64,000 nt of DNA from Liolophura sinensis (taxonomy: Eukaryota > Mollusca > Polyplacophora > Chitonida > Chitonidae), in contig NC_088296.1 of NCBI RefSeq assembly GCF_032854445.1, forward strand, positions 4,237,246 through 4,301,245, read 5' to 3'. Each line of letters opens with the position of its first letter. The first letter of the stretch is position 1. Positions 1 to 63,811 of this stretch are shown piece by piece. Below the pieces are notes generated by a model, which was not told the origin of the DNA, did not search any database, and saw nothing but the letters and a program-made list of their open reading frames with translations. Both the position numbers and the translations under genes were made by a program.

Positions 1-12
1 ACCAACTGTGTG

Positions 13-437: not shown

Positions 438-439
438 GA

Positions 440-2027: not shown

Positions 2028-2031
2028 ATAT

Positions 2032-4226: not shown

Positions 4227-4688
4227 TTTGTTTGAGTACATTTAAAGTAATACCAAAATCACTAAGGTAAGATATTTGCCAACTGCATGTACATTTCCTG
4301 TAGTACGTACCAAGCTCATCTAAATTACATATTTGCTAACTCTGTTTACAGTAGTACCAGTAAATTCCACAAAAGTCTCCGTATTATACACCCAGACAAC
4401 ACAACGCAGAATCATTTGTACTGTGTCGTAATTTAATCAAGTTATTAATAAGCGCTTAAAAGTCGAACTAAATCTTAATAATAATATGTTGTTTTTGTTT
4501 TTTCTGGAAGTAAATGTTGATACATGAAAATTGTAAAACAGTATAAATTAGGTTATGACTTGGAGTTGATATTTTCAGGTTTATAATAGTATCTACATTT
4601 TATATAGGATATTAATGCTTGTTGCCACGTATAAAGCAACTTTCGTGGATCTCTATGTTTAATTAAACATACACAAATGCATGCAGTG
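4227..4688. other. AT-rich gene-free stretch
   Basis: No coding sequence or repeat that I recognise; it follows the 24-bp array and matches 55,095-55,550 in the second copy, again nearly identical. Confidence 0.5.
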
Positions 4689-4694
4689 TTTATT
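4689..4694 (-). terminator. Candidate polyadenylation signal of ZP gene copy 1
   Basis: AATAAA on the minus strand, about 300 bases past the stop codon at 4993; the duplicate has the same signal at 55,556-55,561. Confidence 0.45.
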
Positions 4695-4806
4695 TACAGA
4701 CGAAACTTTACATATTTGCTTCCAAGTGGCATAAAACACGTTCAAGAATGGATAATAATTATCCCGCCATGCTTTAGTTTTACAAAATGTCGTAATATGG
4801 AAATGT

Positions 4807-4833
4807 GTTTTTTTTTTTTTTTTTTTTTTTTTA
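4807..4833. repeat. Poly-T run
   Basis: A run of about 25 T in the putative ZP 3' UTR (A on the transcript strand). It is shorter and interrupted in copy 2. Confidence 0.8.
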
Positions 4834-4992
4834 GACAGATTCACAGTTCACACTTCAAATGTTTGATGTACGGGTTTCATAGTTCTTCAAATTAGAACAT
4901 CAACCTGAGAAATAACATGTCAAATTTCCCACCTAAAAAGATTGCTCAAGAACTTTTTTTACTTCAGAGTGTCAGTTTTCATGGAGATGCCT

Positions 4993-7900
4993 TTAAGCCT
5001 TCCCACCAACTTTCTTCTCCTTCTGCAGGTGATAAGTACGCAGGCATAGCAAAATGGCCGCCACGACAGCAGCCGTCAGCACGATCCCGAATACCGCTAC
5101 AATTGCCACAAAGGCGGTATTCTCCATGCATCGTTCCTTCTCCACGACTGGGGACGTGTCCACTGGCACCATAACTGGAAACAAGTTGAACGTACAGATA
5201 AGAAAATCATATCAGCGGCGTATGCCCTTATCTGGAAAATTTGTGTCATTTTAAAAACATATTATGTTCAGGAATGTGCAGTTTTCATTTATTTATTTGT
5301 TTGGTTGGTATTTTACGCCATGCTCAACAACATTTCACTTACACCACGGAAGCTAGCATTATGATGGGAGGAAACCGGGCAGAGCCCTTGGGAAATCCAA
5401 CGACCATCCGCAGGTTGCTACAGACCTTCCCACGTACGACCGGAGAGGAAGCCAGCATGAGCTTCGATCTGAACTCACGGCAGCATTGGTGAGAGGCTCC
5501 TGGGTCATCGCGCCGTACTGGCGTACTAACCCCAACAGCCACGGGAATAACAAATATTTCTGCAATATTTCAGACCCAAACAAACCCAGGAGTGTGAAAA
5601 TTCATCAGCTTAATCTAATCATGTTTAATGAATTTTCTATATTCTATATACAACACATACGTTAAGGCTGACAGCGAAAAGTGAAGACGTCGCGCTGCTA
5701 AGGGATGTCACTTTTGCATATCCAAAATTGCGTATTTCATCAAAAATCAAAGACGCTATTTAAAAATACGAAAGTAGCCTATTAGCTCAGACTATTCCTG
5801 GGCAGACTTAGATATAAAAAAGTGTACACATTAATTATGCTTGACTTACCGGTGTTGTCTCCAAGGTAACAACGAAGACCTTCCTGGTGACGTTCACTTT
5901 GTTGTCTTCGTCCACCTGTCTTCTCTTACGCCCGTAACCTTTTCTTGTCGAGCTGCCGTCACACGTTTTCTGGGGTGGAAAAGAACCCATGTAAGAGCAA
6001 CCAAACCCTGGGGGTAATATGAGGTGGACAGTGTAAATTCATAATCCTTACAGCGCATGCGTTGCACTCCACGTTCGCTTTACATCACTGCCCCCACTAG
6101 AAAATTTGTAGAGAAATCTTGAACAACACTGACGTCAATAGTGTCATGGTGATGAGGCATGAAGTGACGTCAGGAAGCACTAAAACTCATTCTAAACCTG
6201 TGTTGATACTTACTGGATACTTGATACAATGGGCATGCATTCTCTTTATGTAAAGTATGTACAGCGTGATTGTAATCAACGCTTGAATCAGTTTTACTTA
6301 TGAATACAGCCTAAATACTTCAGCGCAAGGGCACAAATGGTGAGACCAAGCCTACACAAGCCTACGTATGTCGCAAAGATTCCAAATGTCAAGATTGTCT
6401 AGTGGTGGCAGTGATGCAAAGTTAACGTAGAGAGCCGTGCATGCGCTGTAAGGATTATGCTATACATCCCGCTTGGAGTCGTTAGTCTAGGTACATATGC
6501 GCGTGAGCAGACGAGATATTGAAGGCATCCGCGAGTCTCATCCACAAAAATTAGCAGATTGCCTATTCTACGATTCAGTTGATTAAAGCGGAAAACGTTT
6601 TGGAGAAAAAACACATGGCGGAGATCTGTACTTATTTTAAACATTTAAAAAATGGCCGCCTGTATCTTTGTGGATAACAAATGTCTTAACCCAGGCTATT
6701 AGTATTATTTAAATTTAATATATTCTCAAGTATCCTCACCAATCCGATGTTCAGTGAAATTTATCAGTTCGGTATCCCGTCTTCCTTTACAACACGTTTC
6801 TGTATACATGTTTCTGTACAGCATGTTCCTGTATACATGTTTCTGTACAGCATGTTTCTGTACAGCATGTTTCTGTATACATGTTTCTGTACAGCATGTT
6901 TCTGTACAGCATGTTTCTGTATACATGTTTCTGTACAGCATGTTTCTGTACAGCATGTTCCTGTACAGCATGTTTCTGTACAGCATGTTTCTGTACAGCA
7001 TGTTTCTGTATACATGTTTCTGTATACATGTTTCTGTACAGCATGTTTCTGTACAGCATGTTTCTGTACAGCATGTTCATGTACAGCATGTTTCTGTATA
7101 CATGTTTCTGTACAGCATGTTTCTGTACAGCAAGTTTCTGTATACATGTTTCTGTACAGCATGCTTCTGTACAGCATGTTCCTGTACAGCATGTTTCTGT
7201 ACAGCATGTTTCTGTACAGCATATTTCTGTAGCATGCTCCTGTACAGCATGTTTTTGTATTTCTGTACAGCATGTTTCTGTACAGCATGTTTCTGTACAG
7301 CATGTTCATGTACAGCAGGTTTCTGTACAGCATGTTTCTAAGTATATTGTGCCAATTATGTCAAATGTCAACCATACAAAATCAAGAAAAAAAAATCCCT
7401 AAAAATCTCTATTTTTCAGTATTTAAGGATATGTTTCCAGAACCTAATTTTACTTAAGCGATGGTGCCATGTTGTCGTTTAACTTGCTACTATTTATGCA
7501 CTTACATGTTATCAGTTAGAATAAAACAGCGGCTGAGATAAATTGACACGAGACCATATGTCACCAGTTACGTGTGACTATTTGCCAGCTATCATACTGT
7601 CTAGCCCTTTAAGATACATCCATGATACAAGCAAATTTAATCTCTAAAGCTTTAGAAACAACTGATGATCTATGCCCAGCCAACACTGATCCCGCTGTCC
7701 TCGCTCGTACTTGTTGATGCGGACTCCCTTTGGGCTAACATACAGTCCTGTACGCTCACCGGTTCACAGCTAGCTCTGTCCGCCGCCCGACACAGCTTCA
7801 CCGAGCAGGACATGTAAAGAGAATCCTGTCCCTCAAACTTAAAGCCCCGGAAGCCGATGGACACCGTGTTCGCGGACTTCTGGAGGTCACCGGAGAGAAC

Positions 7901-10900
7901 GTCCATGGCATCGGGGGAGGGGCACCTGTGAGACAGAAAGTACACAGGTATGTGCAGCATCGGTATAGGGGAGAAAGGTATCTGCATAATACAATGAACA
8001 CAGCAAACAATGTTCACTGCGCGGAACGGAACATAATTTATTTATTTATTTGATTCGTGTTTTACTTAAGAATATTTCACTCAAACGACGGCCGCTAGTA
8101 TTATGATGGGGGAAAACCTACGACCATCAACAGGTTGTTGGCATAACCTGGACTTGAACTCATAGCAACCGCATTAGTGAGAGAATCCCGGGTCATTGCG
8201 CCGTGCTGCCGTGCCAACCCTCCAGACCACGGACATACAATGTAAACAGCGACAAAACAAACACAACAAGCAATGTTTTCCGCATATCACTGTATATACT
8301 GCTGTATATGATTCTAAATAGAAATTGAACACAACAAACAAAATTTATTGCACAGCATTGTAATATTGATGTACGATACGAAACAATAAATTAACAGAGC
8401 AAACCCCACGCTAACTGCAGAGCAATGTATAGATGTATGACAGGGAAGAGAAAATTAACACTGCAAACAGCGTTTACAGCTCGGCACTGTGCGGTTGTTG
8501 TATTATACGGAACAGAAAATTAAAACAGCAAACAACGTTTGCTGCGGAGCGCTGTACGGTTGAAGCATGACACGAGACAGAAAACTATCACAGCAAACAC
8601 AGTTTACAGCAAGGCACTGTGCGGTTGCTGTTTGATACGGAACACTGGGAAATTTAACACAGCAAACGTTCACTGCAGAACACTGTACGTTGCTGTATGA
8701 CACGGGACACTGGGAAATTTAACACACGGAACAGTAAATTAACACAGCAAACAACGTTTTCTGTAGTGCACTGTACGGTTGCTGTATTACACGGAACACT
8801 GAGAAATTGAGCCAACCAAACAACGTTTATTGCAGAGCATTGTACGGTTGATGTATTACACGGATCAGAAAATTAAAACAGCAAAGAACGTTTAATGCAG
8901 AGCATAGGCTTGCTATATGACACGGAAGAGAAATTTTAACACAGCAAACAACACTATTGCAGAGCATTGTACGGTTGATGTATTACACGGAACACTGAGA
9001 AATTTAACACAGCTAACAACATTAACTGCAGTGCACTGTACGGTTGTGTACGACAGGGAACACTGAGAAATTTAACACATTAAGCAACGTTTAACGCAGA
9101 GCACTGTGCGGTTGCTGTATGACACAGAAGAGAAATTTTAACACAGCAAACAACTTTATTGCAGAGCATTGTACGGTTGATGTATTACACGGATCACTGA
9201 GAAATTTAACACAGCTAACAACATTAACTGCAGTGCACTGTACGGTTGTGTACGACAGGGAACGCTGAGAAATTTAACACATTAAGCAACGTTTAACGCA
9301 GAGCACTGTGCGGTTGCTGTATGACACGGAAGAGAAATTTTAACACAGCAAACAACTTTATTGCAGAGCATTGTACGGTTGATGTATTACACGGATCACT
9401 GAGAAATTTAACACAGCTAACAACATTAACTGCAGTGCACTGTACGGTTGTGTACGACAGGGAACGCTGAGAAATTTAACACATTAAGCAACGTTTAACG
9501 CAGAGCACTGTGCGGTTGCTGTATGACACGGAAGAGAAATTTTAACACAGCAAACAACTTTATTGCAGAGCATTGTACGGTTGATGTATTACACGGATCA
9601 CTGAGAAATTTAACACAGCTAACAACATTAACTGCAGTGCACTGTACGGTTGTGTACGACAGGGAACACTGAGTAATTTAACACAGCAAACAGTTGCTTT
9701 ATGGTGTCGAACACCATAAAGCACTGAATACAGAAACACACACTGAGCAAAATGTGAGCAAGCAGTAAACGTGCGGACGAATGTATAGGCTTATCCATAT
9801 CCATCACTAGATGGGTGGGTGGTTAACTGACCTGTCCAAGACAAGGACTTTTTCCAACAGCTGACCGGATGTGGTGGCAGAGTTTGATCGGTAGTCACGG
9901 TTAAAACTGGAACAAGACTCAACGAAGAAATCCACATAGTCTGAAAATAAATGTTGCAGAAGATAAGTCGTCGATGAAAAACACCAAACTGAGATGAAAG
10001 TGGTGCGTGTGTTTACTTAACTGGTATCAATGTCAGTATATTCTCAATAACTATTTTGATACCTCCTTAAGCACAGGTCAGGTGTACGGGTGCAGGAAAC
10101 CGGACTCTCCGGAGAAAACAACCGACATTTGGTAAGAACGTGATTAACTTTATTCCTACCACCTCATAAATCGCTGCCAACAAGCGAGGGATGGATGGGA
10201 ATTGGCGACCTCGCTGGCCAAGGTTCGACCGGCTGCATTAGGTTATATCATTTAAATTTGGAGAAAAGTCTATAAGTTACACATAAAAGCGTGCGAAAAG
10301 TTAGTTGGAAATGAAGTTTTCAGTATTTTGTATTTAGATTTTTCTTTGAAGAGAAATATACACTTGACAATAATTTTGTATGGTGGGTATGTGGGACCGC
10401 CTCTTGGTATATATGTTGTCTTGGCGTAATATTGTTTTACATGAGGATGTAGCACATGTTTAATAACTATATTTCCACTAGAAATAATCTTTTTAGATAA
10501 CAAATGTGTTCAGTTTAGATTTTGGTCATATTTATATTTTTAATATACTCATAAATATTATCAAAATTCAGATTAAATGTATAAATTTACATTCAGATAA
10601 TTTCAATAGACAAGAATCACATCTTTATTTAAAATATTATTATGGAAATATGATATATACCCAGAGGTGAGCCCAAATACCCACCATACAAAAATAAACT
10701 ACCGGGCAAAAGAAACGTATAACCTTGTTCAGCACCACAAGAAAGAGAAACAAAGACAGACAGTATCAACATGATAAGCATTATATTGCAATAAACCATT
10801 TTCCGAGTTCTGTTCAAAAATTCAAAGCCATATGGATATTACACTTGCTGTCAGGCCGAGTAAAGAAGGCATGGGGTAAATCTGAAAAATTACACAAATG

Positions 10901-13841
10901 CAAGTAAAGGGGCTCACTTTAAAAGGTGTACCTAATGTCCTATCATGTCATACGACAGATCGTTAGTAGCGTGTGTGAGCACCCATTGCATCAATTAAAG
11001 CCAAAATACGTCTCCTCCTGGAAGTCGTCAGCCGCCGGATGACGTCATCAGGAATTCTGCCCCATTCCTAAAATAAAGCCTGTTCGAGCTGTTGCCTGTT
11101 TTGTGGGGGAGGGACGCGTTGTCTCAGACGTCGATCAAGATGATCCCACAGATGCTCTAACGGATTCATGTCTGGCGATGGTGCTGGCCAAGGCAGTACG
11201 TTGACATCAACGGTGTCCAGATAATTTAGTACAACTCTGGCGGTATGAGGTCGTGCATTGTCCTGCTGCAAAAGGATACCCCTTTGCTGTTGATGCACGA
11301 ATGGCACCACAACAGGTTCCAATATTTCATCTCGGTATCTTTGGCCAGTCAGATTTCCCTGGATGATGACCAATCTCGTTCTCACCTGTCCATAAAATTC
11401 CGCCCCATACAAGCACCCCACCAGCACCAAAAGGGTGGACATTCTGAATCGGCTTTCATCAGTGAAATGCACCCTTTCCCAGTCTCGTCGCTGCCATCGA
11501 CGTACCACTCTTGCCCAACGCAGCCTGTTTTGACGGTGTAGAGGAGTCAATACCATTCAACGGAAGGGGCGATAGGCTCTGATACCACTCACGCGGAGTC
11601 GTCATAAGACTGTGCGTCTGCTGATGGGGTGTCCCAGTGCCGTTTCCGCCGTTGACGTTGCCGTCACGAACCGGTTACGCAGGTGGATTGTGCGGATGTA
11701 CCGGTCTTCGCCAGCCGTTGTAACACTTGGCCTGCCCGATCTTGGACGATCTTGTGTCCTGCCTGTTAGGCGGTAACGACCCAATAGTCTGCTGATGGTG
11801 GCTCGACTGTAATTGAATGTTCTGGCAATGTGGTGTTGGCTGGCCCCCATGTCAGCCATACCAGTGGCTCTATCACGTTCTGCTTGTGTGAGTCTCGGCA
11901 TCCCTTAGATGTTTTTTATGGTATTGCACCCTTACCATGTGCTACATCGGTATTTATACGGCGGTCATTATGGAATATTTTCAACAGGGCCCGAAACTCT
12001 GTTTTTCCGATTTTTCATGATGTCTTACACCAATTTCAATGAATCTCGTTAAAAAGTGACGTGTACACAGGGTGCTTATGTGCAAACGTATTCGCACAAC
12101 GTTCAAACTTATTCAACTTATTTTTCCAAAGAAAAAACTGCATTGAAAAGTTATACGTTTCTTTTGCCCGGTAGTTTAGTTTCAAAATACCCTTTTTTCC
12201 TGAAAGAAGAAATCGAAAACAATATTGAAGACATATTTAGAAATATGCATTATCTTTTTTCTCCCGCACGTGGGAAGGTCTCCCAGCAACCTACGGAAAG
12301 TGGTGGGTTTCCCTCGGGCTCTGAGTGGTTTCCTCCCACCATAATGCTGGCCGCCGTCGTGTAAGTAAAATATTCCTGATGACGGCATAAAACACCAATC
12401 AAATAAATAAACAAATATGTTTTCTTCACCTTTAAGATGTGTATTCCGCGTAATACAGCTAACCACCCCAGCTATGTAATATGGACATGTTATATCAGAA
12501 GTCCATTACCTGGAAGTATGCAGCTTTCATATACTTAGTCACCACGGCTCTTTACACTTTACTTCGATCTCTAGCACATTATGTGACGTATCGGCTCATC
12601 CATGTATTTTTCTTTCTCTCGACTGCGCAGCAAACGTTTGAGAAATGGCTGAAGCAAGATGTGTTCCAAACAAGGTTGTGTTGAAATAGACTAAAAAAAT
12701 ACGACAACGGAAGGTTTTGTAAAAGGACAACAATGTCTTTGATAATTATTGTTTATAGTTGCTTGGAAATATAAAAAATAGGCAATGAGTTCTTAACTGC
12801 ATGGCAACAATTATCAGCGAAATTGTAGTTTTTAAATATGGAGTTCGACTTCACGGTGTGGCCAGTTTTTGTAGCAGCCGTTTACAGTTAGATTTCCCAT
12901 GATTCAGTTCACAATTTCCACCCAAGAGGTTGGAATATTTCTCCATCAGATGTCGCGAATGTGTATAGATACGTAACATGTGTTTTGTGCCGTGGGGACT
13001 AGCTATAGGGAAGTTGCATACTTCTAGGTAATGGGCATATGGTAATATCGTTTGGGTTAACCCCACCCCCACCCAAAAAGAAAGATCATTAAATTTATTT
13101 TTCTCACCATTTGGTTTAGTTGTATCCATGGAAACTTGCAGCGTAAGGCGTTCTCCTACTCGAATCACGGAGGAGACGGGATTGCCCGTGTCTTCGTTAA
13201 TGACCTGCATGGTGATAGGGACGTTGAGTGACGTCTGGCTGACTGACTGTCCACTGAGGCCGCCAAGGTCACTGAAAACACAGAATCAGGCGACATCGTC
13301 ATAGCTCTGAATACGTAAAGGTTGAATCTCATTGGCTGAAGCAGGTCACGTGAAGGGTTAACGTTTCCAATCCACAGCCCGCGAGATTACTATCAACCCA
13401 CACTTTGTTGAATATAAGACTTGTTAAAAGACAAATAATGATTTGAAAACTGGACTGCAAAATTTAATATATCAACACCGCACTGTCTCGTCGTCATATA
13501 ACTGAAAAATTGTTAAATACGACGTTAGATCCCAAGCATACATACAAACATTGTCATGTCGCCCTGCTGATTTTGGTTCCATGTTGATATAAACGGGATA
13601 CTAATGTGCTGGTTCGATGCCAAAATTTGCCCAAAGGTTTTATCATGGTATAGAAAGCAGAACATGTTTCAGTCAACCCCTGTGAGACTTACATTCCCTC
13701 CAGACCACCACTGTTGATCACAGTACCAACCAACCCAACGTTCCCGCCATCAGAACACGTGACAGTGTGCTTCTCGTCTGTGTGAGCCAGGTAAGCGGAG
13801 CTATACTGAACGATGACGTCATATGTGGAGGCGTTACCACT
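4993..13841 (-). CDS. ZP-domain protein, 3' exons; left copy with a frameshift
   Basis: Six minus-strand exons join with matching phases: 13,841-13,693, 13,271-13,108, 9,940-9,832, 7,925-7,760, 5,969-5,850 and 5,174-4,993. They encode the second half of ZP-N (a strand ending HTVTC), the linker and ZP-C (cysteines in ESCSS, RCPSP, MSCSV, KLCRA, ASCEP, KTCDG), a basic cleavage motif RKRR, and a last exon with a single hydrophobic segment (AFVAIVAVFGIVLTAAVVAA) and a short basic tail. This is the order of membrane-anchored ZP proteins, which are cleaved by furin-type proteases and polymerise into extracellular coats such as egg envelopes. In this copy a CCAAAGG/CCAAGG one-base deletion in exon 5,969-5,850 shifts the frame, so the anchor exon is read out of frame and soon stops. 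No 5' exons (signal peptide, first ZP-N part) were recognised up to 16.8 kb. It may be a 5'-truncated pseudogene, an allele, or carry a sequencing error. An egg-coat role is only inferred. Confidence 0.8.
5286..5538 (+). repeat. Dispersed repeat 'gattggtgttttacgcc' family
   Basis: A near full-length copy: 'ttggtattttacgccatgct', then a 'gggaggaaaccgggcagagc' core, 'gcaggttgct', 'ccggagaggaagccagcatg' and the end 'gagaggctcctgggtcat'. It lies in the last ZP intron and is shared with copy 2 at 56,152-56,405. Similar copies occur at more than 20 sites in the window in both orientations. No coding capacity; probably a non-autonomous element. Confidence 0.85.
6000..6780. other. Intronic sequence of ZP copy 1 without a recognisable feature
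   Basis: Between the cleavage-site exon and the 15-bp array. The 'cgcatgc' rich stretch near 6055 and 6440 contains two inverted copies of a short 'cttacagcgcatgc' word. No gene is supported. Confidence 0.4.
6787..7340. repeat. 15-bp minisatellite array
   Basis: About 37 units of 'catgtttctgtacag' with interspersed 'tatacatgtttctg' variants. All three plus frames and some minus frames are open because the unit is five codons long. It lies in a ZP intron. The equivalent array in the other copy (57,661-57,742) has only about five units. Confidence 0.95.
7462..7625 (+). repeat. Dispersed repeat with 'tagaataaaac...cagttacgtgtgac'
   Basis: Its sequence ('actatttatgcacttacatg', 'gttagaataaaac', 'ccagttacgtgtgactattt', 'ctatcatactgtc') recurs in diverged form at 39,960-40,160, 49,545-49,640, 50,465-50,700 and 57,878-58,024. 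No coding capacity. Confidence 0.65.
8038..8232 (+). repeat. Dispersed repeat 'gattggtgttttacgcc' family, internally deleted
   Basis: Starts 'tttatttgattcgtgtttta' and ends near 'gcgccgtgctgccgtgccaa'. The 'gtacggccggagaggaag' part is missing. Shared with copy 2 at 58,438-58,632. Confidence 0.8.
8290..9700. repeat. Degenerate ~70-bp tandem repeat with a 202-bp higher-order unit
   Basis: Repeated words 'aacacagcaaacaacgttta', 'gagcactgtacggttg' and 'acactgagaaatttaacaca' recur about every 65-75 bases. From about 8,940 to 9,660 the array is organised as a 202-bp higher-order unit; for example 'gtattacacggatcactgag' recurs at about 9,182, 9,384 and 9,586. It is intronic in the ZP gene. Copy 2 (58,660-59,450) lacks the amplification. 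Confidence 0.85.
10095..10260 (+). repeat. Dispersed 'gaggaaaccggactctccgg' repeat fragment
   Basis: The words 'aggaaaccggactctccgga', 'aaacaaccgacatttggtaa' resemble sequences at 16,866-16,945, 20,606-20,690 and 46,570-46,640. Matching copy at about 59,845-60,000. Weakly defined ends. Confidence 0.4.
10697..12176 (-). mobile_element. Tc1-like DNA transposon with intact terminal repeats
   Basis: Perfect 27-bp terminal inverted repeats (10,697-10,723 and 12,150-12,176; outer end AACTACCGGGCAAAAG) flanked on both sides by TA, the target duplication of Tc1/mariner elements. Total length 1,480 bp with a transposase gene on the minus strand. It sits in a ZP gene intron, and the same insertion at the same TA is present at 60,448-62,000, so it predates the duplication. 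Confidence 0.92.
11068..11901 (-). pseudogene. Tc1-like transposase, broken
   Basis: The N-terminal part (11,901-11,602, starting MPRLTQAERDRA) has a helix-turn-helix DNA-binding region with the Tc1-type linker GRPSVT. The C-terminal part (11,556-11,068) shows FTDESR (first catalytic D), DNARPH (second D) and SPDMNPLEHLWD (catalytic E), with 34 residues between the second D and the E, i.e. DD34E. The two parts are in different frames. Compared with copy 2, 73 bases are missing at 11,448/11,449, just after the first catalytic motif, and other frame changes around the lost region are shared. The protein cannot be active. Transposase would bind the terminal repeats and cut and paste the element at TA. 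Confidence 0.88.
12265..12416 (-). repeat. Dispersed repeat 'gattggtgttttacgcc' family, minus copy
   Basis: Reads from 'cacgtgggaaggtctcccag' to 'ataaaacaccaatcaaataa', just outside the Tc1-like element; same copy at 62,089-62,240. Confidence 0.82.
12420..13100. other. ZP intron sequence without a recognisable feature
   Basis: Short open frames only (12,481-12,684 plus, 12,851-13,210 minus); the latter runs from the 13,271-13,108 ZP exon into the intron. Confidence 0.4.
13483..13540 (+). repeat. Tail fragment of the tRNA-derived SINE
   Basis: 'cgtcgtcatataactgaaaa' and 'aaatacgacgttagatccca' match the 3' part of the SINE in the opposite orientation to the copy at 151. Also at 63,308-63,365. 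Confidence 0.6.
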
Positions 13842-13985
13842 CTGCAATGATAGTGTCCGAACCATGATTGAGAAAAAGCTTTATGTTTTCTTTATATTAC
13901 AATGTTGTTTTTCGTCATACTCATGGAGTTTTCGGTTAGGCCTATACGATAGCAATCAGTTTGTGTACAGAGAAAAGTGGAGTAT

Positions 13986-14130
13986 GAATTTATTTATCTG
14001 ATTGGTGTTTTACGCGGTACTCAAGAATATTTTACTTATACGACGGCGGCCAGCATTATGGTGGAAGGAAACCGCACATCGCCCGGGAGAAACCCACGAC
14101 CACCCGCAGGTTGCTGCCAGACCTGGAACA
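13986..14130 (+). repeat. Dispersed repeat 'gattggtgttttacgcc' family
   Basis: 'tctgattggtgttttacgcg' to 'gcaggttgctgccagacctg'. Lies at the right edge of the duplicated segment and is shared with 63,812-63,950. Confidence 0.85.
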
Positions 14131-14164
14131 ATATTATGTATGTATGTATTTATGTATTTTTAAT

Positions 14165-23953: not shown

Positions 23954-23959
23954 TTTATT
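23954..23959 (-). terminator. Candidate polyadenylation signal of the small secreted gene
   Basis: AATAAA on the minus strand, 73-78 bases past the TAA stop at 24,032-24,034. Confidence 0.55.
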
Positions 23960-24031: not shown

Positions 24032-27000
24032 TTAAACTCCACAGCTAAACTTCGCCAGCTTGTTTCCATCCATATAGAAGTCATAGTTACAGCCGCCGCA
24101 GTAGTTTGCCCTATTAGCACAACAGATGATAGGATAAATAACAAATAAGCCAATGAATTCAAGTTGAAGAAGTTATAAGTTGTTAAATCCAGCTTAGAGA
24201 AGGCTGGCTAAGGCGCTAAGACAAACAAACCATTACACAAACACGTGGATAGACATCCTATCAAATATCAGAGCGCATAAACTTACCGTCTTGCAGAAAA
24301 TCCAACTGACAGAGTGAGGAAAATAAAGGTATATAAAGAAACAGCTCGACTGAGCGACGAACCCACACACGAGAATGGACAGACAGGCAGGCACGCAGGC
24401 ATACGGACCCAGAAACAAGCAGAAACAAGTCCCTTAAGTATACGCATAATCACACACACACGCAAACTGGTGAACACAAAGTGCGTTAAGTACACACATA
24501 ATCATACACAGATACACACACAGACAAACCGGCGAACACAAAGTCTATTAAGTACGCACATATTCATACACATATATACACACAGACATCCAGCGAACAC
24601 AAAATACATTAAGTACACACATAATCATGCACTGATACACACACAGACATCCGGCGAACACAAAGTCTATTAAGTACACACATAATCATACACAGATACA
24701 CACACAGACAATCAGCGAACACAAAGTCCATTAAGTACACACATAATCATGCACAGATACACACACACAGACAAACCGGCGAACACAAAGTCTATTAAGA
24801 ACACACATAATCATACACAGATATACACACAGACAAACCGGCGAACACAAAGTCTATTAATTACACACATAATCATACACAGATACACACACAGACATTC
24901 AGCGAACACAAAGTCCATTAAGTACACACATAATCATGCACAGATACACACACAGACATCCGGCGAACACAAAGTCCATTAAGTACACACATAATCATAC
25001 ACAGATACACACACAGACATTCAGCGAACACAAAGTCCATTAAGTACACACATAATCATACACAGATATACACACAGACAAACCGGCGAACACAAAGTCT
25101 ATTAATTACACACATAATCATACACAGATACACACACAGACATTCAGCGAACACAAAGTCCATTTAGTACACACATAATCATGCACAGATACACACACAG
25201 ACATCCGGCGAACACAAAGTCCATAAAGTACACACATAATCATACACAGATACACACACAGACATTCAGCGAACACAAAGTCCATTAAGTACACACATAA
25301 TCATGCACAGATACACACACAGACATCCGGCGAACACAAAGTCCATTAAGTACACACATAATCATACACAGATACACACACAGACATTCAGCGAACACAA
25401 AGTCCATTAAGTACACACATAATCATGCACAGATACACACACAGACATCCGGCGAACACAAGGTCCATTAAGTACACACATATTCATACACAGATACACA
25501 CACAGACATTCAGCGAACACAAAGTCCATTAAGTACACACATAATCATGCACAGATACACACACAGACATCCGGCGAACACAAAGTCTATTAAGTACACA
25601 CATAATCATGCACAGATATACACACAGACATCCAGCGAACACAAAGTACATTAAGTACACACATAATCATGCACAGATACACACACACAGACAAACCGGA
25701 GAACACAAAGTCCATTAAGTATACACAGACACGGGCAGGTGAACATGCTCACAGTGAGGAACAAACTTATACAGACAGGTAGACAAATAGACAGACCGAC
25801 AGGCAGATGAACAGATCGTCACACTGACAAAAGGATACACACACAGATAAATACACAAACAGAGGGAAATATATACATACAGCTAGTCAGCCAGCCAGCC
25901 AGACAGACAGACAGACAGACAGACACACCGATGGAAAGATAAAGAGACAAAAACACACGGAAAGAAAGACAGACATAAAGACAGACAAACAGACAACAAA
26001 TAGACAGGCAAACATATATACAAAGACAAAATGCATAGACCAATAGACAGAGACAAAAACACACACGGTCATAAAGATAGACAGACAGACAACACACAGA
26101 AAATAGACAAACGATTATATAGCGTATATTTATATACACAGACTATGACATAGACAAACACACTGACAAGCAGATTAAGAGGCAAAAAATACGCGGACAG
26201 AAAAACACACCGACGGACAGACAGAAAGACAGACAGACAAACACACAGACAAACAGACACCACATAGGCAGACAGACAGACAGTGACAGACAGACGGGTA
26301 CTTTACAGGGAGATAAACAGACGGACGAACAGCTAGACGATAGACGGACATACACAGACAAACAGACAGACATACAGACAGACAAAAGGACAACACACAT
26401 TAAGACAAACAGGCAAACGTGTACCTGCACTGGGCGTCAGGGTGACCCGGACATTTGGCCATCATACAGGGATCAATGAAACAGTAGACGAATGAGGTGC
26501 CAGGCGGACAGCTCGGGGCCGCTTAAAAAACAAAAGTTCAAATAAGTAACTTCACAGTATAAGCTGTTAGTTATACTGTGCTACAATACAGTAATTTTAC
26601 AGTTTAATTGTTAGGATATACTGCCCTACAATAAACAACGCCGTTGTATTAATTTTGGGGTATACTATCCTCACAATAAGAAATTCTACGGCAATAATTA
26701 GTGGTTATGGTATCCCCACAATCAGTGAGTGAGTGAGAGCTTGGGGTCGTACTTCGTAGTTAACAATTCTTCAGTCATATGGTGACAAAGGAATCCTTAG
26801 AGCGCATGTAACGTGCCTTGTTGGAGGGCTGATTTCTACCTCTCTTTTATCTAGTGCTACTTCACTGTGACGCCTTATCGAAGGCAAGTAAGGCGCCCCG
26901 CCCGAACCTTTATACTGATTATGGTCAACTAGTCATTGCACTATATCCTTCATGCTGAACCCCAAGCGAGTTACAACTTCCTCTTTTAAGGTCTTAGGTG

Positions 27001-30000
27001 TGACTCGACCCGGGATTGACCCTGAATCTACCGGGCCCGAAGAGGACGCGCTACCAAGTGTGCGATCGGGGCCGGTCCTCACATTAAGAAATACCACGGC
27101 AATTATTATTGGTTATACTAACCCCACAATAAGAAATGCTACGGCAATAACTATTGGTTATACTAACCCCACAATGAGAAATGCTTCGGCAATAACTATT
27201 GGTTATACTAACCCCACAATAAGAAATGCTACGGCAATGACTATTGGTTATACTAACCCCACAATAAGAAATGCTACGGCAATAACTATTGCTTATACTA
27301 ACCCCACAATGAGAAATGCTACATCAATTGTTACTGGTTATACTAACCCCACAATAAGAAATACCACGGCAATAGTTATTGGTTATACTAGCCCCACAAT
27401 AAGAAATGCTACGGCAATAACTATTAGTTATACCCACCACACAATAAGAAATGCTTCATCAATAGTTACTGGTTATACCAACCCCACAATAAGAAATGCT
27501 ACGGCAATAACTATTGGTTATACTAACCCCACAATAAGAAATGCTACGGCAATAACTATTAGTTATACTCACCCCACAATAAGAAATGCTACGGCAACAA
27601 ATCCTGGGTTACACTGTCCCACATTAAGTAACCCAACCCTACAAATTTTTGTGTTACCACATTAAGTAATGATACTGCGCTTCATATGTTGCACTGGACC
27701 CACATTAAGTAATGGTACTGCACTTCATGTGTTGCACTGGCCTCACAACTGTACTCACAATATGTAACGCTACACTTTCATTTGTTTTCTTATTTTGCCC
27801 CGCATTAATGCGCACTACTGCGTTGTATGCAGCACTACACATTGCCCCCACAATAATGAGCACTACTGTGTTGTAAGCAGCATTATACATTGCCCCCACA
27901 ATGGTCAGCGAACTTTATTGCTGCTGTATTCATTGTAGTTATACTCACTCATGACACAGCCAAACACAGACAGAGCTAAGATGAGAAACACTTTCATGTC
28001 TGGTGATGGTCAGCGAGCTTTATGGCTGCTGTGTTCATTGTAGTTATACTCACCCATGACACAGCCAAACACAGACAGAGCTAAGATGAAAAACACTTTC
28101 ATGTCTGGTGATGGTCAGCGAGCGTTATTGCTGTTGTATTCATTGTAGTTATACTCACCCATGACACAGTGAAACACAGACAGAGCTAAGATGAGAAACA
28201 CCTTCATGTCTGGTGATGGTCAGCGAGCGTTATGACTGCTGTATTCATTGTAGTTATACTCACCCATGACACAGCCAAACACAGACAGAGCTAAGATGAG
28301 AAACAACTTCATGTCTGGTGATGGTCCGGGAGCGATATGGCTGCTGTATTCATTGTAGTTATAGTCACTCATGACACAGCCAAACACAGACAGAGCTAAG
28401 ATGAGAAACACCTTCATGTCTGGTGATGGTCAGCGAGCGTTATTGCTGTTGTATTCATTGTAGTTACACTCACCCATGACACAGCCAAACACAGACAGAG
28501 CTAAGATGAGAACACCTTCATGTCTGGTGATGGTCCGGGAGCGATATGGCTGCTGTATTCATTGTAGTTACACTCACCCATGACACAGCCAAACACAGAC
28601 AGAGCTAAGATGAGAAACAACTTCATGTCTGGTGATGGTCCGGGAGCGATATGGCTGCTGTATTCATTGTAGTTATACTCACCCATGACACAGCCAAACG
28701 CAGACAGAGCTAAGATGAGAAATAACTTCATGTCTGGTGATGGTCCGGGAGCGATATGGCTGCTGTATTCATTGTAGTTATACTCACCCATGACACAGCC
28801 AAACACAGACAGAGCTAAGATGAGAAACACCTTCATGTCTGGTGATGGTCAGCGAGCGTTATGACTGCTGTATTCATTGTAGTTACACTCACCCATGACA
28901 CAGCCAAACACAGACAGAGCTAAGATGAGAAACACCTTCATGTCTGGTGATGGTCAGCGAGCGTTATGACTGCTGTATTCATTGTAGTTACACTCACCCA
29001 TGACACAGCCAAACACAGACAGAGCTAAGATGAGAAACACCTTCATGTCTGGTGATGGTCAGCGAGCGTTATTGCTGTTGTATTCATTGTAGTTATACTC
29101 ACTCTTGACACAGCCAAACACAGACAGAGCTAAGATGAGAAACACCTTCATGTCTGGTGATGATCAGCGAGCGTTATGACTGCTGTATTTATTGTAGTTA
29201 TACTCACCCATGACACAGCCAAACACAGACAGGGCTAAGATGAGAAACACCTTCATGTCTGGTGATGGTCAGCGAGCGTTATTGCTGTTGTATTCATTGT
29301 AGTTATACTCACCCATGACATAGCCAAACGCAGACAGAGCTAAGATGAGAAACAGCTTCATGTCTGGTGATGGTCAGCGAGCGTTATGACTGCTGTATTC
29401 ATTGTAGTTACACTCACCCATGACACATCCAAACATAGACAGAGCTAAGATGAGAAACACCTTCATGTCTGGTGATGGTCAGCGAGTGTTATTGCTGTTG
29501 TATTCATTGTAGTTATACTCACCCATGACACAGTGAAACACAGACAGAGCTAAGATGAGAAACACCTTTATGTCTGGTGATGGTCAGCGAGCGCCATGAC
29601 TGCTGTATTCATTGTAGTTATACTCACCCATGACACAGCCAAACACAGACAGAGCTAAGATGAGAAACAACTTCATGTCTGGTGATGGTCCGGGAGCGAT
29701 ATGGCTGTTGTATTCATTGTAGTTATACTCACCCATGACACAGTGAAACACAGACAGAGCTGAGATGAGAAACACCTTCATGTCTGGTGATGATCAACGA
29801 GCGTTATTGCTGTTGTATTCATTGTAGTTATACTCACTCATGACACAGCCAAACACAGACAGAGCTAAGATGAGAAACACCTTCATGTCTGGTGATGGTC
29901 CGCGAGCGCCATGGCTGCTGTGTTCATTGTAGTTATACTCACCCATGACACAGTGAAACACAGACAGAGCTAAGATGAGAAACACCTTCATGTCTGGTGA

Positions 30001-30620
30001 TGATCAGCGAGCGTTATTGCTGTTGTATTCATTGTAGTTATACTCACTCATGACACAGCCAAACACAGACAGAGCTAAGATGAGAAACAACTTCATGTCT
30101 GGTGATGGTCCGGGAGCGATATGGCTGCTGTATTCATTGTAGTTATACTCACCCATGACACAGCCAAACATAGACAGAGCTAAGATGAGAAACACTTTCA
30201 TGTCTGGTGATGGTCAGCGAGCGTTATGGCTGCTGTATTCATTGTAGTTATACTCACTCATGACACAGCCAAACACAGACAGAGCTAAGATGAGAAACAA
30301 CTTCATGTCTGGTGATGGTCCGGGAGCGATATGGCTGCTGTATTCATTGTAGATATACTCACTCATAACACAGCCAAACACAGACAGAGCTAAGATGAGA
30401 AACACCTTCATGTCTGGTGATGGTCAGCGAGCGCCATGACTGCTGTATTCATTGTAGTTACACTCACCCATGACACAGCCAAACACAGACAGAGGTAAGA
30501 TGAGAACACCTTCATGTCTGGTGATGGTCCGGGAGCGATATGGCTGCTGTATTCATTGTAGTTATACTCACCCATGACACAGCCAAACACAGACAGAGCT
30601 AAGATGAGAAACACCTTCAT
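24032..30620 (-). CDS. Small secreted 8-cysteine protein, three exons
   Basis: Exon 1 is 30,620-30,572 (start codon plus signal peptide MKVFLILALSVFGCVM, donor GTGAGT). Exon 2 is 26,521-26,425 (acceptor after a T-rich tract, donor GTAC), exon 3 is 24,110-24,032 ending in TAA. Lengths 49+97+79 = 225 nt give 74 aa and phases fit at both junctions; the signal peptide should be cut after ...CVMA. The mature chain of about 57 residues has eight cysteines, with SCPPGT, DPCMMAKCPGHP and ANYCGGCN motifs. Cysteine-rich modules with a 'NYCGGC' core occur in invertebrate secreted proteins, including some shell-matrix proteins, but I cannot name a family or function. A TATA-like box lies about 50 bases upstream. 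Intron 1 contains about 25 further copies of exon 1 with its donor; any of them could in principle supply the first exon. Confidence 0.8.
24430..25730. repeat. 61-bp minisatellite array
   Basis: About 21 tandem units of 61 bp containing 'acacataatcatgcacagat', 'acacacacagacatccggcg' and 'aacacaaagtccattaagt'. Pairs of slightly different units alternate (catccggcg versus cattcagcg), giving a partial 122-bp higher order. It lies in intron 2 of the small secreted gene. Confidence 0.93.
25770..26420. repeat. Low-complexity acaga/cagacaga tract
   Basis: Purine/AC-rich degenerate tetranucleotide 'caga' repeats, including 'cagacagacagacagacaga' near 25,905. Minus-strand open frames here (cysteine/leucine/valine/serine-rich) are low-complexity artefacts. 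Still in intron 2 of the small secreted gene. Confidence 0.88.
26545..26722. repeat. Degenerate 45-bp repeat, left of a SINE
   Basis: Diverged units with 'gttatactgtgctacaatac' and 'cctcacaataagaaattcta', clearly related to the regular array after 27,090; the SINE at 26,723 separates the two parts. Confidence 0.7.
26723..27077 (-). mobile_element. tRNA-derived SINE inside a 45-bp array
   Basis: Begins 'cagtgagtgagtgagagctt', contains 'gaaggcaagtaaggcgcccc' and ends in a tRNA-like head (reverse of 'gatcgcacacttggtagcgc'). The 45-bp repeat resumes at 'cctcacattaagaaatacca'. Confidence 0.87.
27078..27610. repeat. 45-bp minisatellite array
   Basis: About 11 units of 45 bp, with 'ccccacaataagaaatgcta' and 'cggcaataactattggttat'. 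One plus frame is open (15-residue units containing NPTIRNATA), as expected from the period. It lies in intron 1 of the small secreted gene. Confidence 0.94.
27611..27902. repeat. Degenerate repeats between two arrays
   Basis: Imperfect copies of 'acattaagtaatggtactgc' and 'cattgcccccacaat' separated by about 50-60 bases. Confidence 0.6.
27903..30620 (-). repeat. 105-bp array of duplicated signal-peptide exons (26 units)
   Basis: Twenty-six head-to-tail units, 24 of them spaced by 105 bp and two shortened to 104 bp. Read on the minus strand, each unit carries: a 'ctgac...atcaccag' branch-point/acceptor-like stretch, ATG, a 16-residue signal peptide (variants MKVFLILALSVFGCVM, MKLF..., ...VFHCVM), the splice donor GTGAGT, and about 50 bases of intron-like sequence. 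Every unit I read keeps the donor. The unit at about 29,568 has lost the start codon (ATA). Units near 28,510 and 30,505 have a one-base deletion that shifts the signal-peptide frame. The unit at 30,620 is the only one next to a TATA box. About half the units have a TGA stop after the donor; the others read 'APGPSPD' straight into the next unit. Confidence 0.93.
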
Positions 30621-30670
30621 ATCTGGTCCGTGAGAATAATGGAACTGGCCTTTTTAGGTTCGTATACATG

Positions 30671-30678
30671 TATATATA
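30671..30678 (-). promoter_or_regulatory. TATA-like box of the small secreted gene
   Basis: TATATATA on the minus strand about 50 bases before the start codon at 30,620, placing a transcription start near 30,645. None of the other 25 exon-1 units has such a box. Confidence 0.5.
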
Positions 30679-35434: not shown

Positions 35435-38224
35435 TTACGGTGTCGCATGCAGCTCTTGCGAACTTGTACTTGCTTGTGCTTGAGATGACACTTTGCTGGA
35501 CACGGTGTTAGGCGTTGTCTCTTTTCCAGACCTCTTAGCAGCTTTGCGGCGACATCCGCAGAAGACGTCGGCGAAGGCCTTTCGGAAAGTACTGGACATA
35601 ATGAAGATGATGAAGGGGTTGGCCTGGCTGTTCGCGAAGAGGCAAATCCAGGAAATCCAGTACACGATGTAACTTTCGCGCTTCACTAGAGCCTCTTCGA
35701 AGCGGTAGATATCCGGCGAGAGAACGTTGAACAGCTCCAGCATGCAGCGGGGGAATCTGCAAATGACGAAGACGACGACGGCAATGAGCAGCATGATGAC
35801 GGTGCGCGTGCGCGGCGACCGGCGCGCGGATTTCGCGTGGTCCGCGCGAGCGACTTCCTCCGTAGGCTTCTTCTTGAGGATCGCACGGACCATGCGAGCG
35901 TAGACGAAGACGAGGATAGGAACGGAGCCGAAGTTGGAGATGACTTCCAAACCTGCCACGTAGCTCTTCATCCATGGCTCGGCGATATAGATGTAGCAGA
36001 ACGTCAACGTCTGGTTTCCCTCGGGGAACGTGTCGTAGCGAGACATGATGTAGGTGGGGAAAGAGAAAGCGACGGTGAGGAGCACGATGCTGGTGAGGAC
36101 GTAGAATGTGCGACGTCCCGACCAGTAGTAAAGCGAGACGAGAGGATGACAGACTGCGATATAACGATCCAGGCTAACAAACAGGAAGATCAAAGTAGAG
36201 CAAAATACACCGCCTTTGTCGTAAAACAGGATGAAATAACCTGAAACATGAAAATATTGTCAAATGTAATGTATGGACAACAACTCAGCTGTACCAAATT
36301 CCTACCAAAAATATAGGACGCTAGACACAATAGCAAATATATAATTTCCAAGACAAAAGCACAAATATATACATGGGTAAAGCTAAACACAAAGCTATGT
36401 CTAACGAGGCAAAACATATGTAACACCAAGCTAAACACAAGGCTAAGTCTAAGAAGGCAAAACACATGTAACACAAAGCTAAACACAAAGCGAAGTCTAA
36501 CAAGTCAAAACATATGTAACACAAAGCTAAACACAAAGCTAAGTCTAACAAGTCAAGACATATGTAACACCAAGCTAAACACAAAGCTAAGTCTAAGAAG
36601 GCAAAACATATGTAACACAAAGCTAAACACAAAGCTATGTCTAACGAGGCAAAACATATGTAACACCAAGCTAAACACAAGGCTAAGTCTAAGAAGGCAA
36701 AACACATGTAACACAAAGCTAAACACAAAGCGAAGTCTAACAAGTCAAAACATATGTAACACAAAGCTAAACACAAAGCTAAGCCTAACAAGTCAAGACA
36801 TATGTAACACCAAGCTAAACACAAAGCTAAGTCTAAGAAGGCAAAACATATGTAACACAAAGCTAAACACAAAGCTAAGTCTAACAAGTCAAAACATATG
36901 TAATACCAAGCTAAACACAAAGCTAAGTCTAAGAAGGCAAAACATATGTAACACAAAGCTAAACACAAAGCTAAGTCTAAGGAGGCAAAACATATGTAAC
37001 ACAAAGCTAAACACAAAGCTAAGTCTAACAAGTCAAAACATATGTAACATAAAGCTAAACACAAAGTTAAGTTTAACAAGCCAAACATATGTAACAAAGC
37101 TAAACACAAAGGTAAGTCTAGCAAGTCAAAATATATGTAACACAAAGCTAAACACAAAGCTAAGCCAAGAAAGGCAGAATATATTCAACCTAATCTAAAT
37201 AGAAGGACAAGTTTAGCTAGTCAAAACATATGTAACCTGTACTAAACACAAAGCTAAGTCTAGCAAGGCAAAATATAATCAACCTAAACTAAAGCCTATC
37301 GAGACAAAACATGTTCAGCCTATTCCATATAAAAGTTCATGAAATAAGCCCATGGATAGGTACTCTGGTATCGGTGTTTAAGTCACGATAGAACGAGATT
37401 ACTGTAATGAAATGTTGTCAAACATATACTCTGTACGAAATTTTAAAAGGGGTAAATATTTCCTAACTTATTATCGCGTGTTACGTCGTCATCCGGCTGA
37501 CCTATATAAACGGTCTTGAAGGACGTGTCATTAAGTTCATCGCTTTAATCAGTTGATAACCTGATGATGATCCTTATAAGTGAAGGAGTCCGAAAACAAT
37601 GTGCACATCAGGGAGAGGTCAAACTCACGACTTTATTGGTCAGGAGCTTCAGAATCTAGCCACTGAGAGATCCTACACTCTTGACTACTTAATAAGATGC
37701 AGTGTTTATTTCATGTGGAGACCTGCCAATTCCAAATTTTATTTCTTTTTTTTTTATTGAATTAAATCTTTTCAATGATGGTATACTATCCTCAAAATTG
37801 CGCGCATCATCATATAGATGCGGAAAATTCAAAGTAGTCTTGACGAATTTAGTGTCATTTTAACAAGACTTCGCAAACACCACACTATGAGGTCAAGTTT
37901 AGTAAGTAAGTGAGAATTGTTGCGTGTCCTTGCTTTTATAAACAACGTCTTACAGAGGTGTTCTCCTAGGTTGGAATCGTCCACTCCAAACTCCCAGTTC
38001 ATCGTCACGACTGGCTGATAGACGAGGAACAACACATCCGCCAGACTTAGGAAAGCCAAGCTTTTATTCACCGTAGTCCGGAGCGATTTCACCTTGGCAA
38101 CAAGGAATATGATCAAGAGGTTACCAAGGATTCCAACTGCGGTCATAACGCCGCAGACGGACACCAAGGCAATGCGTGTTCCCATGGAAGCCTCCCAAAT
38201 GTCGAACTCATAGTAGCTGTCCAT
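35435..38224 (-). CDS. Rhodopsin-like (class A) G-protein-coupled receptor
   Basis: Two coding exons, 38,224-37,954 and 36,240-35,435 (271+806 = 1,077 nt, 358 aa). The junction splits the codon for the conserved disulphide Cys at the top of TM3 (T|GT); that Cys is exactly 25 residues before the DRY arginine, as in the family. TM1 has GNLL, TM2 LSLADVL, the first extracellular loop a tryptophan, TM3 ends SLDRYIAVCHPL, ECL2 has a Cys (TFCYIY), TM7 has NPFIIF; a cysteine (CGCRRK) and Ser/Thr-rich tail follow. This overall pattern suits peptide-type receptors, but the ligand cannot be told. Two switch positions are unusual: TM6 reads CRFP where CWxP is usual, and TM7 has NPxxI rather than NPxxY. 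The ATG is preceded by an acceptor-like 'tttaaacag', so 5' UTR exons probably lie upstream. Confidence 0.93.
36330..37180. repeat. 48-bp minisatellite in the GPCR intron
   Basis: About 17 units of 48 bp with 'gctaaacacaaagctaagtc', 'taacaagtcaaaacatatgt'. The minus frame is open for 278 codons (16-residue LALCLALCYICFDLLD units) because the unit is 16 codons. It lies between the two coding exons of the GPCR. Confidence 0.94.
37200..37828. other. GPCR intron sequence without a recognisable feature
   Basis: Fading copies of the 48-bp repeat up to about 37,330, then unique sequence with a poly-T tract at 37,748. Confidence 0.45.
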
Positions 38225-38414
38225 TATTACGTGAGGGAATCTGTTTAAAAAAAAACCATAGTCAATGTTTCATTTAAACGACGGCAATCTGCTTTATTTG
38301 CGAAGGAAAGCTGACGGCAGGATTAAATCGTAGCCTTTCACCAGGCACCAGAAACACATTTCGTGCTGCACAGAATTCGTGCTGCAATTCTGCGAATGGT
38401 CGAATGGGCACCAC

Positions 38415-50770: not shown

Positions 50771-51293
50771 CTGCTACATATTATCCTGTGACTGCTATAT
50801 ATTGTCCTGTGACTGCTACATGTTATCCTGTGACTATTACATATTGTCCTGTGACTGCTACATATTGTCCTGTGACTGCTACATATTGTCCTGTGACTAC
50901 TACATATTATCCTGTGACTACTACATATTATAATGTGACTGCTACATATTGTCCTGTGACTGCTACACATTGTCCTGTGACTGCTACACATTGTCCTGTG
51001 ACTGCTACACATTGTCCTGTGACTACTGCATATTCTCCTGTGACTACTACATATTGTCCTGTGACTGCTACATATTATCCTGTGACTACTACATATTATC
51101 CTGTAACTGCTACATATTGTCCTGTGACTGCTACACATTGTCCTGTGGCTGCTACATATTGTCCTGTGACTACTGCATATTGTCCTGTGACTACTACATA
51201 TTGTCCTGTGACTACTACATATTGTCCTGTGACTGCTACATATTGTCCTGTGACTACTACATATTCTCCTGTGACTACAACATACTGTTTTGA
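50771..51293. repeat. 21-bp minisatellite array
   Basis: About 25 units of the same 21-bp unit as at 440-1,263. Its right end matches window positions 13-150, so it marks the left part of the second duplication copy. Confidence 0.94.
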
Positions 51294-51652
51294 GTGAGTG
51301 AGTGCTTGGGGTTTAACGTCGTACTCAACAATTTTTCAGTCATATGACGACGCAGGAATCATTAGGGTGCATGTACGTGTAATGTGCCTCCTTGTTGCAG
51401 GACGGACTTCCACTGCTCTTTTATTTAGTGCTGCTTCACTGAGACGACTTACCGAAGGCAAGTAAGGCGCCCCGCCCGAGCCATTATACTGATACGGGTC
51501 AACCAGTCGTTGCACTATCCCCTTCATGCTGAACGCCAAGCGAGGAAGTTACAACTTCCTCTTTTAAAGTCTTAGGTGTGACTCGATCAAGGATTGATTC
51601 TGGATCTACCGGTTTCGAAGCGGACGCTCTACCAACTGTGCTATCCGGGCCC
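51294..51652 (-). mobile_element. tRNA-derived SINE, full length
   Basis: Same insertion as 151-437 but with the tRNA-like head kept (51,585-51,652: reverse of 'gcacagttggtagagcgtcc'). It is the most complete minus-oriented SINE in the window. Confidence 0.9.
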
Positions 51653-51654
51653 TT

Positions 51655-52494
51655 CATACTGTTCTGTGACTGCTGCATATTGTCCTGTGACTGCTATATA
51701 TTGTATTGGGACTGCTACATATTCTCCTGTGACTGCGACATATTGTCCTGTGACTGCTACATATTATCCTGTGACTGCTACATATTGTCCTGTGACTGCT
51801 ACATATTGTCCTGTGACTGCTGTATATTGTTCTTTGACTATATATTGTCCTGTGAGTACTACGTTGTCCTGTGACTACTACATATTGTCCTGTGACTACT
51901 ACATATTGTCCTGTGACTGCTACACATTGTCCTGTGACTGCCAGATATTGTCCTGTGACTACTACATATTGTGCTGTGACTGCTACATATTGTCCTGTGA
52001 CTACTACATATTGTCCTGTGACTGCTACATATTGTCCTGTGACTACTGCATATTCTCCTGTGACTACAACATACTGTTCTGTGACTGCTACATATTGTCC
52101 TGTGACTGCTATATATTGTACTGGGACTGCTACATATTCTCCTGTGACTGCGATATATTGTCCTGTGACTGCTACATATTCTCCTGTGAATACTACATAT
52201 TGTCCTGTGACTACTACATATTATCCTGTGACTACCACATATTGTCCTGTGACTACTACATATTGTCCTGTGACTACTACATATTATCCTGTGACTGCTA
52301 CATATTGTCCTGTGAATACTACATATTGTCCTGTGACTACTATATATTCTCCTGTGACTACAACATACTGTTCTGTGACTGCTACATATTGTCCTGTGAC
52401 TGCTATATATTCTTCTGTGACTACTACATATTCTCCTATGACTACCACATATTGTCCTGTGACTATTACATATTCTCATGTGACTACTACATAT
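51655..52494. repeat. 21-bp minisatellite array
   Basis: Counterpart of 440-1,263, with units gained or lost relative to it. It ends exactly at the LTR target duplication ATAT (52,491-52,494). Confidence 0.95.
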
Positions 52495-53258
52495 TGTTAT
52501 GTGCACAACTGTCGTCATCTTCTAAATTTAACTTGCCACTGTTTACATATGCTAAGTTCAGGGCCTGCTGTCTGCCTCTACCTTAGAATGTTCCAGAATA
52601 CGCTCAGTTCGGTACCTGTTTGTTTACATCATGTCTTACTAGACTAGACATACTAGACAATTCCACCAGGCTATATAAGACCTATGAAAGCAGGTCAAAG
52701 GGGAGAGAAAGGAGAATTATTGAAAGTTTTGGATGCTTTCGTTGTGTATTACTTTAGTAAGCATTTTGTGCTCAATTTTGGTGTCTCTATAGCCTCTGGC
52801 TTTGTTATATCCTATCTCCACCGAGCACTTGTTCAGTCTGAGCTTGTATATTTGATTCGTGCTCTTGTGTACACAGTGCTTATTAGTACACGGACCCTGT
52901 ATGTGGAATTTTGTGTATATTTCGTCATACACTCAGTTATACTGTGGATCTTCCCTCTTGTGAATTTGCTTCTGAGCATTTATGCCTGTGTGGTATATAT
53001 TGTGGAATATATGCGTCCGTTTGGACTTGACACCGTTGTACATGTAAGTACTTTAGTATTTGTTTAGATACTGCTATCCTTTCTTGTTAAACGTAAGTAC
53101 TGTAGTATTTGTATAAGTCTTGCTATCTGTTCTTGCTAAACCTAATAAATTGTTGTAAAATAAAATCTGCTGGTTTTGGTTACTTTTTTGTGCGGCTAAA
53201 CTGTTGTGTATTTCGAACAAGCCATCTCTTTATAATACAGGCGGCTTGGGTCGTAACA
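52495..53258 (+). mobile_element. Solo LTR (764 bp), second copy
   Basis: TGTTA...TAACA ends with ATAT on both sides (52,491-52,494 and 53,259-53,262), and the same length as 1,264-2,027. The long open frame inside it ends earlier than in copy 1 (a TGG to TAG change), which supports it being non-coding. Confidence 0.88.
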
Positions 53259-53262
53259 ATAT

Positions 53263-54166: not shown

Positions 54167-54429
54167 GAGAACACAATGTATGTTGCTCTGGCTTCACAAC
54201 ACATTGTCCTGTAGTCGCTACATATTGTGAATGGAACCAGAATTTTAGAGCCTAAAATATCTGAAAATTCGAAACGCCGTCGCTGCAACTTAGGTCCATC
54301 TGTGAATGCTACGTACTATTATTGGGTATATTTTATTCTACAATGGGACCAACCATAAGGTTTCGTTGGGACGAATAGCCCAGCATGTTTACTAGCCTAT
54401 CTTGTTTCTGAAGAAGTACAAATCTTACC

Positions 54430-63666: not shown

Positions 63667-63811
63667 CTGCAATGATAGTGTCCGAACCATGATTGAGAAA
63701 ACGCTTTATGTTTTCTTTATATTACAATGTTGTTTTTCGTCATACTCATGGAGTTTTCGGTTATACGATAGCAGTCAGTTTGTGTATAGAGAAAAGTAGA
63801 GTATGAATTTA

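Follow-up and report, generated by a model that had tools for sequence, protein, structure and literature searches.

A minisatellite that repeats the coding first exon of a predicted small secreted protein gene in the chiton Liolophura sinensis

Described systems and the repeated first exon of a chiton gene

A minisatellite in the human IFI6 gene (G1P3, 6-16) is said to supply several splice donors, a finding reportedly made by Turri, Cuin and Porter in 1995. The IFI6 repeat unit is ~12 bp long and the array is placed at the end of an exon. A different arrangement is seen at UGT1A and in the clustered protocadherins, where there is a promoter for each first exon and the first exons differ in their conserved coding content. 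For IFI6, an excerpt of the published account states that two downstream units of the minisatellite serve as splice donors (PMC4526556). How does the chiton locus compare with these systems?

In the window, which is the whole 64,000-nucleotide stretch of Liolophura sinensis DNA that was analysed, an array of 105-bp units carrying exon 1 occupies positions 27900..30620 of the minus strand. The initial annotation had claimed 26 minus-strand units of 105 bp, two of them 104 bp long, and this claim is confirmed by the TRF call (27901-30627, period 105, 26.0 copies, 92% matches, score 4649) and by the unit starts, which run head-to-tail on the minus strand from 30620 down to 27997. The length, by spacing or by count, is 105 bp in 24 of the 26 units and 104 bp in the units starting at 30515 and 28521, while unit 26 continues for ~98 nt before giving way to a flanking 48-bp repeat. 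The usual unit is composed of a 16-codon signal peptide read from its ATG (MKVFLILALSVFGCVM), one further nucleotide, a GTGAGT splice donor and 50 nt of intron-like sequence. A start codon, signal peptide and donor had been attributed to every unit; start codon, frame and donor are all intact in 22 of the 26. The ATG is kept in 25 units (ATA at 29571), the frame is kept in 24 (two units have lost 1 nt of coding sequence), and the exact GTGAGT donor is present in 25 when the deletions are allowed for (GTGACT at 28417). In addition to start loss, frameshift and donor change, loss of a cysteine is seen among the extra units.

The chiton minisatellite is like that of IFI6 in that it repeats a splice donor, which lies in each unit across an exon-intron boundary, and for this reason the initial statement that no described system is built this way was too strong. 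The two arrays differ in the size and content of the repeat, such that the IFI6 unit is ~12 bp whereas the chiton unit is 105 bp and contains all the coding sequence of the first exon together with its start codon. Moreover, the chiton array is found in three paralogues with 4 to 26 units, and its downstream donors are potential ones, whereas IFI6 repeat units are used as donors. The locus resembles UGT1A and the protocadherins in placing many first exons before one common body, but the chiton units are near-identical, stand 105 bp apart and have one good TATA box among them. Ordinary intronic minisatellites are similar with respect to head-to-tail orientation, variable copy number, signs of block duplication and the absence of detected constraint on the units; unlike them, the chiton unit has an exon with a start codon and a donor. 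What is unusual here is that an entire coding first exon, start codon included, lies within the unit, and that the paralogues form a series of 4, 25 and 26 units. No second example besides IFI6 was recognised in a literature search covering the titles and abstract starts of open-licence papers.

The predicted gene and its three copies

The predicted functional first exon is the exon part of unit 1 (30572..30620, minus strand), consisting of MKVFLILALSVFGCVM plus the first base of codon 17. Exon 2 (97 nt; 26425..26521, minus strand) is joined to it in phase 1 and carries five cysteines, and exon 3 (79 nt; 24032..24110, minus strand) carries three cysteines and the stop codon. An AATAAA polyadenylation signal is located at 23954..23959 of the minus strand, and at the other end of the gene a TATA box, TATATATA, is located at 30671..30678 of the minus strand, upstream of unit 1 only. 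The in-phase join of 49, 97 and 79 nt results in 74 codons and a stop, which bears out the earlier claim of a single downstream body that fits the donor phase; the window contains one copy of this body.

The gene is predicted to encode a small secreted cysteine-rich chiton protein, the mature form of which would have eight cysteines, five from exon 2 and three from exon 3. A Pfam search with the predicted protein returned only a sub-threshold match to IBR_1 (E 0.11, 12.8 bits against a cut-off of 27), and a PDB sequence search returned four weak matches that are not credible, the best being to a plant synthase (E 0.0066). A search of a large protein database with the predicted protein yielded no candidate, and a literature search for the motif NYCGGCN gave no match. 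As described in an excerpt of PMC9198434, the molluscan Family I84 protease inhibitors are similar in several respects: they are small, secreted and rich in cysteine, they are encoded by three exons, and their signal peptide begins in exon 1. Their conserved cysteines, however, number 12, with six in exon 2 and six in exon 3, whereas eight are predicted here. Membership of Family I84 was rejected because the family definition specifies 12 cysteines.

A part of the array used as query has at least 17 matches in the genome, which fall into three clusters ~51 kb apart on one 28.4-Mb contig. Twenty stretches around array matches were examined and the gene body is present in two of them in addition to the window; the resulting figure of three gene copies refers to the 259 kb examined and to the genome array search, in which match counts are lower bounds. 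Copy A (L009), copy B (the window) and copy C (L010) sit in tandem segments of ~50 kb, parts of which are repeated inside the window at 1-14 kb and 50-64 kb. The number of array units changes between these copies of the locus, as in a minisatellite, from 25 in A and 26 in B to 4 in C.

An alignment of 9964 bases gives a difference of 0.67% between copies A and B; the row of the comparison involving L012 (12%) was left out, part of L012 being non-homologous to the window. A heterozygosity of ~1.24% is given in an excerpt of the publication on a chiton assembly named Liolophura japonica (PMC11068029), and a subsequent correction renames the species of that assembly to L. sinensis (PMC12441733). 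Since the difference between A and B is smaller than this heterozygosity, the two copies may be recent duplicates, or they may be alleles that were placed in tandem by the assembler. Between C and B the divergence is 3.8-5.0% across the gene's noncoding stretches, and it is 2.1% in a neighbouring stretch of 9.4 kb.

The divergence between B and C allows the gene body to be compared with its surroundings. The body differs at 3 of 225 sites versus 133 of 3078 noncoding sites (Fisher p = 0.0136), and the contrast with noncoding DNA becomes p = 0.0011 when 80 nt of unchanged 3' UTR are counted with the body. Two of the three body changes, both in exon 3, are nonsynonymous (M to V and N to K) and the change in exon 2 is synonymous; protein-level constraint therefore rests on small numbers. 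A, B and C do not differ at all in the exon part of unit 1, but 49 sites are too few for this identity to mean much alone, chance identity being estimated at about one in eight (4.3% over 49 sites). The 200 nt upstream of unit 1 (-200..-1), which were left out of the noncoding comparison set, are the same in A and B (0/200 differences), while B and C differ there at 7/200 sites. This upstream divergence is no less than that of noncoding DNA, and one of the B-C changes lies inside the TATA box, which reads TGTATATA in copy C.

Change among the array units and choice of donor

All 55 units of A, B and C were compared, with the end tails of C4, A25 and B26 dropped. Distinct changes number 24 in the 49 exon sites and 22 in the 56 remaining sites, and the corresponding variable sites are 19/49 and 21/56 (Fisher p = 1.0). 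Among the single-base changes in coding sequence, 16 of 21 are nonsynonymous, the neutral expectation being a share of 0.72-0.77. Constraint at an omega of 0.3 would yield 16 or more of 21 with p 0.006-0.014, and stronger constraint would do so with a lower p; an omega of 0.5 is compatible with the observed count. These values fit array exon copies that change as if unconstrained, and they reject strong constraint. Weak constraint on the exon copies is possible, given that pairs of units differ less, on average, in the exon part (0.055) than in the remainder (0.079) and that one distinct change was counted across the six donor sites versus ~2.7 expected, a deficit that is not significant (p = 0.24). 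Different conserved content of the kind seen in clusters of alternative first exons was not found, the units being near-identical and their changes occurring at a neutral share.

The initial annotation held that the coding part is at least as well kept as the intron-like part and took this to suggest homogenisation or function. The observation stands for off-consensus cells (84/2695 in the exon part, 154/~3010 in the remainder) and for pairwise difference, but not for distinct changes per site. An even spread of substitution, which the annotation had named, in combination with absent expression, as telling against its own reading, is what was found for distinct changes. Homogenisation as a sign of function was rejected on this even spread between exon and remainder, and function finds no backing in the nonsynonymous share. 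With respect to the history of the array, units that stand two apart are the most alike (permutation p = 0.0006, the spacing having been chosen after inspecting twelve; p = 0.85 at spacing one), a pattern taken as a sign of block duplications.

Which of the repeated donors would lead to the protein? For A, B and C, a script spliced each array donor, one at a time, onto exons 2 and 3. The frame that opens at the first AUG enters the body from donor 1 only, that is, from 1 of 25 donors in A, 1 of 26 in B and 1 of 4 in C. The frame that opens at each unit's own ATG enters the body in 22/25, 23/26 and 4/4 units, respectively, when donor changes are ignored (one of the 23 units in the window has the altered donor GTGACT), and coding from the ATG of a downstream unit requires an internal start. 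The proposal that exon 1 was amplified within its own first intron, at the head of that intron, is supported. The further proposal that the copies are interchangeable first exons is not supported, since only donor 1 reads into the body from the first AUG. For the extra copies the only possible roles are those of alternative first exon and decoy donor. Splicing from unit to unit was rejected on account of the frameshifted units, and a single long repeat protein from the array was rejected on account of in-frame stops, which occur within 105 nt of the unit's own ATG in 16 of the 26 units.

We hypothesize that a neutral minisatellite engulfed exon 1, leaving unit 1 as the copy in use and the other units as decoy donors within the intron, and we regard this explanation as quite probable. 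The repeat unit would have chanced to straddle the junction of exon 1 with intron 1. Transcription would start at one TATA promoter, the one ahead of unit 1. The spliceosome would then link exon 2 to the donor of unit 1, which is the nearest to the cap, and units 2 to 26, making up the first ~2.6 kb of intron 1, would be spliced out. Use of a downstream donor in error would likely give a non-productive transcript because the frame from the first AUG misses the body. Unequal exchange or replication slippage would alter the number of units and barely affect the protein.

Could the number of units nevertheless matter? It is conceivable, though unlikely, that the array forms either a strip that recruits U1 snRNP or a ladder of cassettes, each with a weak promoter and a first exon, and that the output of an unchanged protein is set by how many units are present (4 to 26). 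An alternative hypothesis, which we judge to be distinctly unlikely, is that every unit is a self-sufficient alternative first exon, with transcription starting at internal TATA-like sequences and any donor being joined to exon 2 to give one protein. The initial annotation placed a TATA box before the first unit only, which is correct for a good TATA box, none having been found inside the array, but not for TATA-like strings. The weak string GTATAACT occurs just after the donor in 18 of the 26 window units, ~50 nt before the next ATG, and internal transcription starts are possible because of it; together with the 23 window units that encode the body from their own ATG, this string argues for alternative first exons. 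However, these units are without the good TATA box that TATATATA provides before unit 1, no protein-level constraint was detected on them, the nearly identical peptide encoded by all of them brings no gain in diversity, and copy C retains the gene with 4 units.

Less probable again is a role in which the row of donors is never spliced and instead acts as a landing strip for U1 snRNP, boosting transcription or protecting intron 1 from premature polyadenylation. The exact GTGAGT at 25 of 26 window donors and the single distinct change across the 6 donor sites are consistent with such a role, but this conservation falls short of significance, as stated above, and in copy C the body is still open and nearly identical with only 4 units upstream of it. 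The precedent of IFI6, in which two downstream repeat units act as donors according to the excerpt of PMC4526556, raises the prospect that several downstream donors are moderately used and that the extra upstream start codons carried into the mRNA reduce protein output. We consider this to be very improbable for the chiton gene, in which unit 2 of the window is frameshifted and the donors beyond donor 1 all fail from the first AUG. Finally, the units would be internal exons if a cryptic acceptor (CCAG before each ATG) were used, the product being a protein with repeated hydrophobic segments. The unit length and the implied 51-nt exon are indeed both multiples of three, but the implied 54-nt intron is without a pyrimidine tract and 1-nt deletions in two units break the frame in both long arrays, so that this last explanation is scarcely credible.

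If a neutral minisatellite has engulfed exon 1, the array is most likely a striking natural test of splicing and not a new system of interchangeable exons. The locus would constitute a natural experiment in the choice of one 5' splice site among ~26 that are near-identical and 105 nt apart. Nearly the same body is present in paralogues with 4, 25 and 26 sites, which makes the choice of the cap-proximal donor, the recruitment of U1 and the tolerance of decoy starts testable. Such an origin would also mean that a minisatellite can engulf a whole coding first exon, with no evident loss of the gene.

Neighbouring repeats and genes

Two further minisatellites called by TRF lie in the introns of the gene. 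Intron 1 contains a 45-bp array (27080..27597, minus strand; 11.5 copies in the window) for which copies A, B and C have 11.5, 11.5 and 15.5 repeats, and intron 2 contains a 61-bp array (24472..25727, minus strand; 20.4 copies in the window) for which the counts are 18.4, 20.4 and 7.6. The lengths of all three arrays (with units of 105, 45 and 61 bp) in copy C differ from those in A and B, so that the exon-bearing array varies much as its neighbours do, in line with the neutral reading. Over a short stretch the 45-bp unit is similar to the 105-bp unit around its donor, with 17 identities over 19 columns and one mismatch; a fuller alignment of the two includes a 2-nt gap. The score of this comparison beats all but 0.2% of shuffles (p = 0.002). 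The 45-bp array may possibly be an older array derived from the donor, which is only a lead since the comparison was picked by eye. Over the window as a whole, TRF arrays with a period of at least 12 cover 28% of the sequence.

The tandem segmental duplication of ~50 kb is present in three copies at ~4.20-4.35 Mb of the contig and is represented in the window by positions 1-14157 and 50771-63976. Two domain matches lie in the duplicated segment: a fragment of a ZP domain at window 7670-8041 (PF00100, E 1.3e-05) and, at window 11068-11556, a piece resembling a DDE transposase (PF13358, E 2.3e-09). Pieces of a rhodopsin-type GPCR gene (PF00001) are located on the minus strand at 35435-36259 (E 8e-22) and at 37829-38269 (E 2.8e-05, below the curated cut-off).
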